40,589 nucleotides of DNA, taken from a virus. Position numbers and translations under genes: made by a program. The notes below the pieces were generated by a model. The model made no database searches, had not been told where the DNA came from, and saw nothing but the letters and a program-made list of their open reading frames with translations. The number at the start of each line of letters is the position of its first letter. The stretch's first letter is position 1. The stretch lies in IMG/VR virus record IMGVR_UViG_3300020202_000049, positions 1 through 40,589 of that record; one strand, given 5' to 3'. Shown here one piece after another: positions 14,841 to 36,342 of the stretch.

Positions 14841-14861
14841 TGCTACCGAAAACTGCTACCT
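14841..14861. promoter_or_regulatory. Integrase arm-type sites, right group
   Basis: TGCTACCG at 14841-14848 and TGCTACCT at 14854-14861; the second overlaps the integrase stop codon. They share orientation with the three left copies. Confidence 0.6.
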
Positions 14862-15831
14862 AATAGGGTAATTTCTCTACTGGAACGAGGGCGGAATTCT
14901 GATGAGAGTAACGCTCAGTAGTTTTTACTGTGGAGTGGCCAAGGGCATCTTTAGCTGGGGTTGATCCAACATTACGAACTAAATGAGTAGCAAAAGTGTG
15001 TCGAGTTGTATGCGTTGAACCTTGCAGCTTTGCTCTTTTCAACAATCTTTTCCAAAACCAATACAGCCCTGCTGGGCGTAAGCCGTTTAGAACAAACGAG
15101 CCTTTGCATTTAGGTTGCCATTTCAAAAGAGTTTCACGTAAAACGGGATGCAATTTAATGGTTCTTTCTTCATAGTTTTTTAATCTAAAGCCCGGTTTGC
15201 TTTTTAAGTGGATTAGGTCTTTCTTAAAATCTATGTCACCCCACTCAATCTTGGTCATTTCCGTCCTTCTGAAGCCCGTATAAAGCGCCAAATCTACCCT
15301 TATTTTGCTTTGAATGTCGCTAGCTGTATCGCGGAGTAGGTTAATCTGGTCTAATTCGAAATAACCCCTAATTTTGCGCGTTTCCTTGAGTTTTTTAACC
15401 GCTCTTAAATCGTAATAGTCTAAAATCTTCCACTCCATGGCTCTTCTCGCCATAGCCTTGATAGTGCCAAGTTCCCTATTAATGGTGGCCGGTGACTTTT
15501 TAGCTGAAACGCGGGCAGTTTTATATTGTTCCATGGCGTCGTTAGTGAATTCCCGCAATTTGTTTATTCTAGTGATATTAGTGAATGTGTCTATTGTGAT
15601 TTTGTCTCTTTCATAGGTAGTTGCGGAATGATTGGTTTTCGAATATGCTAAATACTTGTCCTTAAAATCATACCAATTCATTTCGCTCGTCGTTGATAGA
15701 TCCATTTTTTCCAGAAGTTTACCATAGCGGATTTTGGCTTCCCGTTTATCATCTGTCTTTAACGAACGCCAAACTTTTTTCCCCTGATGATATATTGCGG
15801 CGTGGTATGTGTTTCCTCGTAATTTAATCAT
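14860..15831 (-). CDS. int: Tyrosine integrase
   Basis: 323 residues. Residues 1-45 form an arm-binding beta domain (RGNTYHAAIYHQGKKVWRS), 50-140 the core-binding helices, and 160-323 the catalytic domain. The catalytic set is complete: R188 in YTGFRRTEM, K near 210-212, H274 and R277 in HTTRHTFATHL, H299 in LGHS and nucleophile Y308. It directs site-specific integration at the adjacent tRNA-Asp-derived attP. The ATG immediately precedes the toxin stop, so it shares the leftward toxin-antitoxin operon with a strong upstream promoter (16273-16301). Confidence 0.95.
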   Translation of the reverse strand: MIKLRGNTYHAAIYHQGKKVWRSLKTDDKREAKIRYGKLLEKMDLSTTSEMNWYDFKDKYLAYSKTNHSATTYERDKITIDTFTNITRINKLREFTNDAMEQYKTARVSAKKSPATINRELGTIKAMARRAMEWKILDYYDLRAVKKLKETRKIRGYFELDQINLLRDTASDIQSKIRVDLALYTGFRRTEMTKIEWGDIDFKKDLIHLKSKPGFRLKNYEERTIKLHPVLRETLLKWQPKCKGSFVLNGLRPAGLYWFWKRLLKRAKLQGSTHTTRHTFATHLVRNVGSTPAKDALGHSTVKTTERYSHQNSALVPVEKLPY

Positions 15832-28177: not shown

Positions 28178-28363
28178 TTGAGACAGCCGACAGACCCAGA
28201 CAAGTTAGAGCAACTCAGGAAATATCACATTGAACTGTTGTCGAGATTTTTGAGAGGGAAGCTGGATGGAAAGGTGACGCACTTAATGAGAATAAAAGCT
28301 AATGAGTTAAGGGTTTCTCTTTCGGTTTATTACGAGCGCAATAGAAAATTGAAACAAGTATAA
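28178..28363 (+). CDS. 61-residue helical basic protein
   Basis: TTG start with AAAGGAGG at good distance. PDKLEQLRKYHIELLSRFLR is strongly helical and basic. Last gene of the early block before a terminator. Confidence 0.55.
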   Translation: MRQPTDPDKLEQLRKYHIELLSRFLRGKLDGKVTHLMRIKANELRVSLSVYYERNRKLKQV

Positions 28364-28459
28364 TCTTGCACTTTTATGCTATATCTTGTATAAAAGGACT
28401 GACCGGGGCTATTTCCCTACTAGCTTCGGATTGCAATACGGGTTAGTATTACATCCATC

Positions 28460-28487
28460 CATGGAAATTTAAATATAAATTCCCATG
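28460..28487. other. Imperfect hairpin before terminator
   Basis: CATGGAAATTT and AAATTCCCATG pair with one A-C mismatch around a six-base AT-rich loop. No coding frame seen here. Confidence 0.35.
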
Positions 28488-28497
28488 CTAGTTTGAT

Positions 28498-28541
28498 AAA
28501 AAGCTCTTGGAGTTTAGTCCTCTGAGAGCTTTTTCTTTTTT
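28498..28541 (+). terminator. Intrinsic terminator of early operon
   Basis: AAAAAGCTCTTGGAG pairs with CTCTGAGAGCTTTTT-type arm (15 bp with two G-T pairs), loop TTTAGTC, followed by a second T-run. Ends transcription of the early genes. Confidence 0.85.
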
Positions 28542-28837
28542 GATTCCTCTTTTTATTCATACTCCGTCCTTGTTGTTACTTCATTTCGGGCATAATTTCA
28601 CCCGGGCCTTTGCAGGTGATTAATATGCCTATAGGAGAATGTGGAATCAGAAGGGTTTTGCCCCGGCCAGCATTCAATAATTGTCCCATCATATTAAAAA
28701 GTTGTCAAGTAATTTGTCCCAGCGGCAAACTTATTCGTTCAATCCGTAACAAACCGGAATAATACGGAATGGAATTAGACTACAAAAAATACACTTTTCT
28801 GCTACACTTAATATAAGTGTTAATGGATTTTTCCGCC
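28542..28837. other. Non-coding stretch with repeat cluster
   Basis: No convincing gene; a 45-codon ATG frame at 28625 has no coding signal. TACACTT occurs at 28790-28796 and 28803-28809 (13 bases apart) and its complement AAGTGT follows, with TATAAG (28812-28817) as a candidate -10. This could be a late promoter with activator sites. Confidence 0.4.
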
Positions 28838-29005
28838 CTTAGCTTTTTTTGCTAAGCCGCGAGCGCCAACGAAAGTTCGCGTCGCTTTTTACATAAACCC
28901 TTTAGCCTCATGAACTAAAGGATGAGTTAGCGCAAACTAACGCCAACAGATTTTGCGGTCTGATTGTCCCGAGGAAAACCCTCGTGATGGTCAGGCCGCT
29001 TTTTT
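28838..29005 (+). ncRNA. Structured RNA with H-type pseudoknot, ending in a terminator
   Basis: Five consecutive helices: CTTAGC-T7-GCTAAG (28838-28856); a GAAA-loop hairpin GCGA..TCGC (28859-28885) followed by TTTTT; CCTTTAG (28899-28905)/CTAAAGG (28915-28921) with CTCAT (28907-28911) in its loop pairing with ATGAG (28922-28926); GTTAG/CTAAC (28926-28941); and the terminator stem 28955-28999. No long frame runs through it. Either an independent small RNA or a late-operon attenuator leader. Confidence 0.55.
28955..29005 (+). terminator. Strong intrinsic terminator
   Basis: GCGGTCTGA pairs with TCAGGCCGC (one G-T), with an inner CGAGG/CCTCG helix, and six T follow. It lies 15 bases before the next gene start. 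Confidence 0.85.
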
Positions 29006-29020
29006 GTTGCAAGGAACCTA

Positions 29021-29212
29021 ATGGGATTTAGATATCACAGCGACTACGAAGTATCCGTCCAAGCCTCCGAAAAGAGAAGCAACGAAACCGGAATCCTTAA
29101 ACGCGGCAAGGTCATGGATGAAGTGAAAAGTATGCTCAAAGACGGATACGAGGTTGATTTCTCAAACCCAGAAGTAACGATCTTTAGGAAGCCGAAGCGG
29201 AGAATGTGGTAG
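29021..29212 (+). CDS. 63-residue basic hypothetical protein
   Basis: MGFRYHSDYEVSVQASEKRS... with KVMDEVKSMLKDGYEVDF is alpha/beta and basic. AGGAA precedes the ATG. Isolated between a terminator and the RNA-structured gap. Confidence 0.55.
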   Translation: MGFRYHSDYEVSVQASEKRSNETGILKRGKVMDEVKSMLKDGYEVDFSNPEVTIFRKPKRRMW

Positions 29213-29598
29213 AAACCAGATTTTAACCGTATCAAGCAGGATGTCTTTGTTTCCATTTCGCATCCAAAAAAAGAGTTAATGGAAAACCTTATCAAATAAG
29301 CATTTTAGAACTTTGAACTTTTTAAGCCCTTTTCGTTCCGAAACAATAAAGGGAATGCAGAAAAAGAAACCGAAATTGACCACCACGGGTGTTGGCAACT
29401 TTCACCTTGGTCGCTTGGCAAATAAATGTCGTCAGTTGGTAGTAATGGGAACGGCTCTAAACTCCTAAACTACTATAACGAGTATCGCTAATGGTTAGCC
29501 ATAGAGCTTGCCAAGCAAGAAAGTTGAAAGAAGTGTTATGTTTTTTAAAAGTCTTAATATACAAGCATTTTAGAGATTCAGTAAAACTATAGGAATCT
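29213..29598. other. Non-coding gap before terminase
   Basis: Only short frames (a 37-codon ATG frame at 29355 with a badly spaced ribosome site). It contains the long-range inverted repeat at 29396-29526 and a small GCTAA-TGG-TTAGC hairpin. Confidence 0.5.
29396..29526. repeat. Long-range two-part inverted repeat
   Basis: CAACTTTC (29396-29403) and GCTTGGCAA (29413-29421) pair with GAAAGTTG (29519-29526) and TTGCCAAGC (29508-29516): 17 bp interrupted by an unequal internal loop. The enclosed bases hold a small hairpin. Conceivably a packaging-site or mRNA leader structure upstream of terS. Confidence 0.55.
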
Positions 29599-29892
29599 AT
29601 GCCTTTTAAAGCCGGTGAAGAGTGGAAAGGAAATAGCAAGGGTCGGCCGCGGAAGCCGGAGATTGACCTTGTTAGAGAAGCTATAGAAGAGACGGCAATA
29701 GAAAAGAAGAAAACACTCTGGAAACATTTAATTGAGCAGTGCTATCAGGACAACAACGTTTTAATCGCAGTTGCAAAGAAGTTCATGCCTGACAAGATAG
29801 CAGCCGATGTTACGATTGATGACAGTTACGACTGGCAAGAACGCAGAAAAGAGCTGTTGGAATCACTCAAAGGACTAAATGCCTCAGATTGA
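29599..29892 (+). CDS. terS: Small terminase subunit
   Basis: 97 residues. PFKAGEEWKGNSKGRPRKPE is the basic N terminus typical of phage TerS (often GRPRK), followed by helices and a coiled C terminus. It overlaps the large subunit by 14 bases. Binds the packaging site and stimulates TerL. Confidence 0.75.
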   Translation: MPFKAGEEWKGNSKGRPRKPEIDLVREAIEETAIEKKKTLWKHLIEQCYQDNNVLIAVAKKFMPDKIAADVTIDDSYDWQERRKELLESLKGLNASD

Positions 29893-35460: not shown

Positions 35461-35590
35461 GCCCCGCTACGGCACGTGTGATTCCGACAAATTTGGGAAT
35501 CAGCTCTGTAGCGGGGCTTTCCTTTTGGTAGTAAAGGCTCTCACCGATAGAGCGCTTGCTACCAAAAAACTTTCTCCCTTCAAGGGAGGA
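35461..35590 (+). other. Three hairpins upstream of scaffold gene
   Basis: Hairpin 1: GCCCCGCTAC/GTAGCGGGGC (35461-35517) with an inner TGATTCC/GGAATCA helix. Hairpin 2: TTTTGGTAG/CTACCAAAA (35523-35567) with an inner GCTCT/AGAGC. Hairpin 3: CTCCCTT-C-AAGGGAG (35574-35588). A candidate processing or attenuation leader of the capsid genes. Confidence 0.55.
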
Positions 35591-35613
35591 AATATAAAAC
35601 GGAGGTTTGAAAA

Positions 35614-36342
35614 ATGGAGCTTGAAAAAGACGTGATTGAATCGGAATCGTCTACCGATATTGATTCTCAGGAGCCAACACCCAACTCGAGTGAGGGTAAC
35701 AACTCGTTAAAAGGCGAAGAGAACTTCAAGGAACTACTGAAAAAGAAAGACAAGGCAATTAGTGACTTGCGGGCGAAGCTGGAAAGCTATCAGTCCGAGA
35801 AAGAGGAAAGGATAGAGGAACTGGAGTCTAAAAAGCGTCTGAGCGCATCCGAACAGGACGAACTTGAATCGCTTCAGGATCAAGTGGCCGCTATCAAAAG
35901 AGATAAAAGATCAAAACCCTGGTTAGAGGTGAACAAGGAAATATCGAAGAACGTTACCAAAGACGGGATTGATTCTTTAGATCTTGCCTATGCTGAAGAG
36001 TTTGTAGAGGAACTAGCCGAGAAAGAAGGAAAGGACGTGGATGAGTTCATGCCCGAGATTAAAAAGTATATGCGCCGGGTAGACCCCGAAGCGAATATGC
36101 GCCTTCTTACCAGAGCCAAGAAAGCCTACAAGATGATGAAGCATGAGGAAACTCTCTCTAAACGTGAGAAGGAATTGCTTGAAAAAGAAAGACGTTTTTC
36201 TGAAGCAGGAGGTTCCAAACAGCCCAAAGCTCCATCTAGAGACGAATTACTCGGTTGGAAAAACAGCAAAGACCCTGACTTAGCTTTAACACAGTTACTT
36301 AAAGGGGTTAATGCCGTTCAATCAGAGCAAACGTCCAGATAA
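35614..36342 (+). CDS. Scaffolding protein
   Basis: 242 residues. Ser/Glu-rich N terminus, then a charged coiled coil (KKKDKAISDLRAKLESYQSE) and a helical C terminus. Immediately precedes the major capsid gene, with a GGAGG ribosome site, the standard place and character of a phage scaffold. No protease domain is visible. Confidence 0.75.
   Translation: MELEKDVIESESSTDIDSQEPTPNSSEGNNSLKGEENFKELLKKKDKAISDLRAKLESYQSEKEERIEELESKKRLSASEQDELESLQDQVAAIKRDKRSKPWLEVNKEISKNVTKDGIDSLDLAYAEEFVEELAEKEGKDVDEFMPEIKKYMRRVDPEANMRLLTRAKKAYKMMKHEETLSKREKELLEKERRFSEAGGSKQPKAPSRDELLGWKNSKDPDLALTQLLKGVNAVQSEQTSR

Follow-up and report, generated by a model that had tools for sequence, protein, structure and literature searches.

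A hairpin-rich, terminator-closed region at the early/late boundary of an uncultured temperate phage as a possible late-operon leader

Based on the analysis reported here, we tentatively suggest that a 220-nt region, 28786-29005, of the window (the whole stretch of viral DNA analysed, 40,589 nt) is a Q-like terminated leader of the phage late operon. The region is strongly structured, ends in a strong intrinsic terminator (T2) that lies 15 nt ahead of the first ORF of the late block, and has no alternative fold that competes with this terminator. In the suggested model, transcription would start at or near 28790-28820 and give rise to a hairpin-rich RNA of ~185 nt that would be stopped at T2 in the early or lysogenic state, thereby keeping off a 63-aa ORF, the terminase genes TerS and TerL, and the genes downstream. 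A phage or host factor that loads onto the polymerase close to the promoter, or possibly the leader RNA itself, would confer termination resistance late in infection, and the resistant polymerase would then read the whole late block. A second terminator upstream (T1) may have the same role one step earlier or may be the plain end of early transcription. A leader closed by T2 would probably add a new case to a known class of control.

Genomic setting of the region

The 40.5-kb contig carries a direct terminal repeat of 127 nt at its ends, an assembly sign of completeness, and is probably a complete phage genome. By its gene content, this is an uncultured temperate phage, with the genes in a lambda-like order. 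The tRNA/tmRNA scan returned none. The genes that define the setting are as follows.

14860-15831, minus strand, integrase
20192, exonuclease
22179, DnaD-like replication gene
22912, DnaC-like replication gene
23744, VRR/resolvase-type nuclease
28178-28363, plus strand, last early ORF, 61 aa, TTG start preceded by AAAGGAGG
29021-29212, plus strand, 63-aa ORF, first of the late block, AAGGA ahead of its ATG
29599-29892, plus strand, TerS-like ORF, 97 aa
29879-31285, plus strand, large terminase TerL
32076, portal-like gene
36369, major capsid gene

TerL is assigned by its match to phrog_38 (E 2.4e-75), while the TerS-like ORF has a very weak DUF5681 match and is assigned by position. Small early ORFs lie in a row that ends at 28363. 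About 650 nt separate the last of these from the 63-aa ORF that opens the late block, and the hairpin-rich element lies within this gap. The sequence-only reading that preceded this analysis had correctly placed the element between the early genes, which end at 28363, and the terminase genes at 29599 and 29879. The resulting order, from integrase through replication genes to the element and on to TerS-like/TerL, portal and capsid genes, counts in favor of a late leader.

The two small ORFs that flank the gap have no relatives in the searches made with them. The 63-aa ORF is preceded by a ribosome-binding site, and its codon usage is phage-like (z 2.2). For the 61-aa ORF, codon usage lends weak support, the predicted structure is a single long helix and uninformative, and no regulator fold is recognisable in this neighbor of the leader.

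RNA structure and terminators

The gap contains the following features, of which the promoter-like blocks are putative.

28367-28396, plus strand, promoter-like block P1, TGCACTTTTATGCTATATCTTGTATAAAAG, read as TTGCAC-17-TATAAA
28419-28495, no strand assigned, inverted repeats forming a three-way junction, between P1 and T1
28498-28540, plus strand, terminator-like hairpin T1, 15 bp with a CTTTTTT tail
28790-28819, plus strand, weak promoter-like block P2, TACACTTTTCTGCTACACTTAATATAAGTG
28804-28820, no strand assigned, perfect dyad of 17 bp, ACACTTAATATAAGTGT, which overlaps with the putative -10
28838-28856, plus strand, hairpin CTTAGC-T7-GCTAAG
28859-28885, plus strand, hairpin with a GAAA tetraloop (-11 kcal/mol), then TTTTT to 28890
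28899-28921, plus strand, hairpin CCTTTAG/CTAAAGG
28926-28941, plus strand, small hairpin GTTAG-CGCAAA-CTAAC
28955-29005, plus strand, intrinsic terminator T2, 14 bp, a 1x1 mismatch and 5 bp, loop AAAAC, U6

The 220 nt of 28786-29005 fold with a minimum free energy of -73.8 kcal/mol (z -6.96), and none of 200 shuffled sequences folded as well; without the 5' part, z is still -5.75. In a scan of the genome (1348 windows, two strands), the region belongs to a small group of most strongly structured sites. Thus, both the strong structure claimed for this stretch and the run of plus-strand helices upstream of T2 are borne out. The minus strand folds about equally well (-74.4 kcal/mol, z -5.18). 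Because inverted repeats are expected to fold nearly equally on both strands, the strand was judged helix by helix. Only T1 and T2 clearly prefer the plus strand, while the inner hairpins fold as well or better when read from the minus strand. The hairpin at 28859-28890 with its TTTTT run forms a weak terminator-like element within the leader.

The T2 stem (28955-28999, 19 bp) is followed by TTTTTT and has a stability of -30.5 kcal/mol compared with -19.7 kcal/mol on the minus strand, in agreement with the strong terminator that had been read at 28955-29005. When both strands of the genome were compared for hairpins with a U-tail, T2 ranked second in stability; only the hairpin at 35461 is more stable (-33.6 kcal/mol), but with a poorer U-run, and T2 is the most stable canonical hairpin with a full U6 in the genome. 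The T2 tail ends 15 nt ahead of the ATG of the 63-aa ORF. This distance leaves no room for a promoter of the ORF's own, and read-through of T2 is therefore needed if the ORF is expressed from upstream. Forbidding the 3' arm of T2 costs 25.7 kcal/mol (from -67.8 to -42.1 kcal/mol), while the best pairing of the 5' arm within the leader gains merely 5.7 kcal/mol. Because alternative folds fall short of T2 by ~26 kcal/mol, a two-state attenuator is improbable. For the gene to be read, a processive mechanism would be required in which the polymerase itself is modified, as under Q or put control. We rejected riboswitch-like and leader-peptide attenuation for the same reason, i.e. no alternative fold approaches T2.

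Neither T1 nor the closeness of T2 to the 63-aa ORF was part of the earlier reading. T1 lies 135 nt past the last early ORF and folds with -17.8 kcal/mol on the plus strand compared with -14.7 kcal/mol on the minus strand. T1 and T2 are ~420 nt apart, and each has structured DNA ahead of it. The three-way-junction repeat between P1 and T1 folds better as minus-strand RNA (-27.7 vs -18.5 kcal/mol).

An H-type pseudoknot had been proposed at 28899-28926. Its two stems, S1 (CCTTTAG/CTAAAGG) and S2 (CTCAT/ATGAG), do complement each other. However, with the 7-bp S1 the connecting loop across it (loop 3) is 0 nt, with 5 bp it is 2 nt, and the geometry is feasible only if S1 is trimmed to ~4 bp. Moreover, comparable motifs occur in 22% of shuffles for an S1 of 7 bp with an S2 of at least 5 bp, and in 77% for 5 and 5 bp. 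The pseudoknot was dropped on these two grounds.

Promoter-like blocks

The TACACTT copies at 28790 and 28803 and the TATAAG at 28812 are present as read earlier; as a loose pattern, the spaced TACACTT repeat is no commoner than expected by chance. In P2, either TACACT (extended, with TGC ahead) or TATAAG could be the -10 element. Scoring of the plus strand for sigma70 sites found no convincing promoter here, and P1 and P2 are both outside the good sites. The two blocks are the best internal match of each other in the gap (12 of 13 and 21 of 30 positions), and this similarity is reached by 3.5-19% of shuffles, depending on length. Since the likeness is only borderline against shuffles, we rejected it as proof of tandem late promoters. 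The second TACACTT forms half of the perfect dyad at 28804-28820, which is unique genome-wide as a perfect match, while the genome has 24 dyads of such size. The dyad would suit an operator, or the first hairpin of the RNA.

On the minus strand, 28708-28680 reads TTGACA-17-GACAAT with TG ahead of the -10 and is the best sigma70-like site of that strand in the genome. It reads leftward from between the two terminator units and leads into an SD-preceded 46-aa ORF (28560-28420) and the three-way-junction repeat. Further downstream, at 29438-29547, there are -35/-10 candidates whose scores are equal and modest.

Searches for relatives

Rfam scans at the gathering threshold and at E 10 returned nothing fitting. 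Neither a pattern scan of viral contigs, BLAST in the records of relatives, nor distant BLAST in phages found a homologue of the leader, and searches via TerS, the 63-aa ORF, the 61-aa ORF and a 330-aa early ORF led to none either. These empty searches speak of missing homologues and not of missing covariation. A genome collection gave no match by TerL and, by capsid, only relatives with 29-42% identity from mixed hosts. Close relatives were limited to one groundwater-type phage, represented by contigs with TerL at 58% and capsid at 79%; upstream of terminase, these have other genes and other DNA. The regions before terminase in the relatives L003, L027 and L030 are structured in places and unrelated to the leader.

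Two of these contigs have repeats of their own. L003 has two exact copies of TTGGCATAAAAATTGCTAC (1999-2017 and 2109-2127) before the ORF in the TerS position; the pair loosely recalls the two blocks described here, but this likeness is too short to build on. A sigma54 reading of this repeat was considered and discarded: its GG-N10-GC fits a -24/-12 element, but the blocks in the window do not have such spacing. L030, from a Synergistaceae MAG, has many TGTCCC/GGGACA repeats at 1497-1680 that are extremely stable (z -7.5) and lie before a RusA-like gene.

Discussion

The Q-controlled leader at lambda pR'-tR' has a similar anatomy. In both cases, a promoter-like site at the early/late boundary is followed by a leader of ~185 nt and a strong intrinsic terminator before the late block. 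By definition, Q-type control combines binding at the promoter with a terminator downstream (PMC6266700, PMC7171158). Here, T2 lies between the putative late promoter and the first late gene, as in a Q-dependent leader. P2 scores poorly as a sigma70 promoter, and a Q site between -35 and -10 or a promoter-proximal, sigma-dependent pause is not recognisable without the protein. The Q families PF03589 and PF06530, which cover lambda Q and Q21, had no match in the genome while their controls gave a signal; PF06323 (the Q82 model) had none either, but its control was equally silent. The leader is also far more structured than that of lambda and is followed directly by packaging genes. Thus, of the attenuated late leader envisaged by the sequence-only reading, the anatomy, with T2 15 nt before the late block, has held up as the best fit, while its promoter is unconvincing and no Q or ArpU protein was detected. 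The ArpU/RinA-type late activators of Gram-positive phages also have their control point immediately upstream of terminase. However, their target is initiation, which requires no terminator, and the genome has no match to the ArpU family (TIGR01637).

HK022 put, to which the region had also been likened, is a structured leader RNA near a promoter and upstream of a terminator. It comprises ~70 nt with two stem-loops in early leaders, works in cis with no phage protein, and needs defined bases and the zinc-binding domain of RNA polymerase (PMC9378689). The element described here would serve a late and not an early operon, no two-stem element of this kind is identifiable in it, and no put family matched in Rfam. 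It is very unlikely that the leader RNA acts in cis, without a Q-type protein, to modify the polymerase for read-through of T2 and the entire late operon, as would a put-like late antiterminator unrelated to HK022 put in sequence and fold. The analogy with phi29 pRNA, a structured RNA that is roughly as long and also lies close to packaging genes, did not survive. pRNA is described as peculiar to phi29-like phages (PMC11476376), whereas the phage studied here is temperate and lambda-like, does not have genes for protein-primed replication, and has an ordinary TerL with a TerS-like ORF ahead of it. Also, the pRNA family model had no match in Rfam scans of the window or in a permissive scan of 28300-29650.

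The main alternative is that T1 and T2 are strong terminators of the ordinary kind, which close rightward early transcription and thereby shield the late genes, with the late promoter further down (29213-29598) and the intervening hairpins as by-products or protein-binding repeats. We regard this explanation as doubtful, and it deserves serious weight: 135 nt separate T1 from the last early ORF, a strong promoter before T2 is absent, and promoter candidates of equally modest score lie at 29438-29547. A separate promoter within 29213-29598 could serve TerS and TerL, which counts against a late leader, as do the failure to find a leader homologue, the different sequence ahead of terminase in the nearest relatives, and the lack of a recognisable regulator fold in the 61-aa ORF. 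On the other hand, ordinary terminators leave unexplained the excess structure at 28804-28945 and the position of T2 merely 15 nt ahead of an ORF, and two terminators 420 nt apart, each after structured DNA, are more than the end of an operon needs. 

A stand-alone small RNA of ~185 nt, starting near 28820 and ending at T2, perhaps with a second one before T1, is less probable still. Such an RNA could target host or phage RNAs in trans, or serve in packaging or assembly. Compact hairpins between a promoter-like block and an intrinsic terminator are the typical make-up of a small-RNA gene, and the minus-strand fold of the first unit, before T1, is likewise unusually stable. Against this idea, Rfam has no fitting match even at E 10, no homologue was found, and the closeness of T2 to the ORF suits a leader better; a pRNA-like version is further opposed by the ordinary TerL and the TerS-like gene. 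It is improbable that the inverted repeats act as DNA, be it as an operator (the 17-bp dyad), as a site for a packaging or integration protein, or as part of a leftward transcription unit from 28708-28680. In favor of this view, the dyad overlaps the putative -10, the best minus-strand sigma70-like site lies at 28708-28680, and several helices are more stable when read from that strand. Against it, T1 and T2 clearly favor the plus strand, where they have their U-runs, and codon usage does not back the two leftward ORFs (38 and 46 aa).

If the late-leader model is correct, a switch based on termination followed by read-through would operate in a lineage far from the coliphages in which such control was worked out, and, as no Q protein is recognisable, its agent would be a new antiterminator, either protein or RNA. 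If T1 and T2 are merely a pair of terminators, they represent ordinary genome punctuation.

Other structured sites in the genome

The 386 nt of noncoding DNA before TerS could be a packaging (pac/cos) site. It contains a 23-nt imperfect inverted repeat, two copies of AAGCATTTTAGA (29298-29309 and 29563-29574), and a possible long-range GCTCTA/TAGAGC pairing; the structure at 29399-29530 with this pairing has a z of merely -1.8.

Directly before the scaffold-like ORF at 35614, three successive hairpins (-33.6, -22.3 and ~-11 kcal/mol) occupy 35461-35592. Three hairpins are present in the same place in the related phage L007 (4663-4792) and likewise in L002, L003, L005, L006 and L008. When the arrays of the window and the related phage were compared from the outside in, with the register set by hand for these two lineages, 23 of 42 pairs differed on both sides and still paired. 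Because the hairpins are not followed by a full U-run, this array is likeliest a processing element (perhaps for RNase III) or stabilising element of the capsid mRNA, or a weak terminator. As an RNA element of this phage family, it is better supported than the leader.
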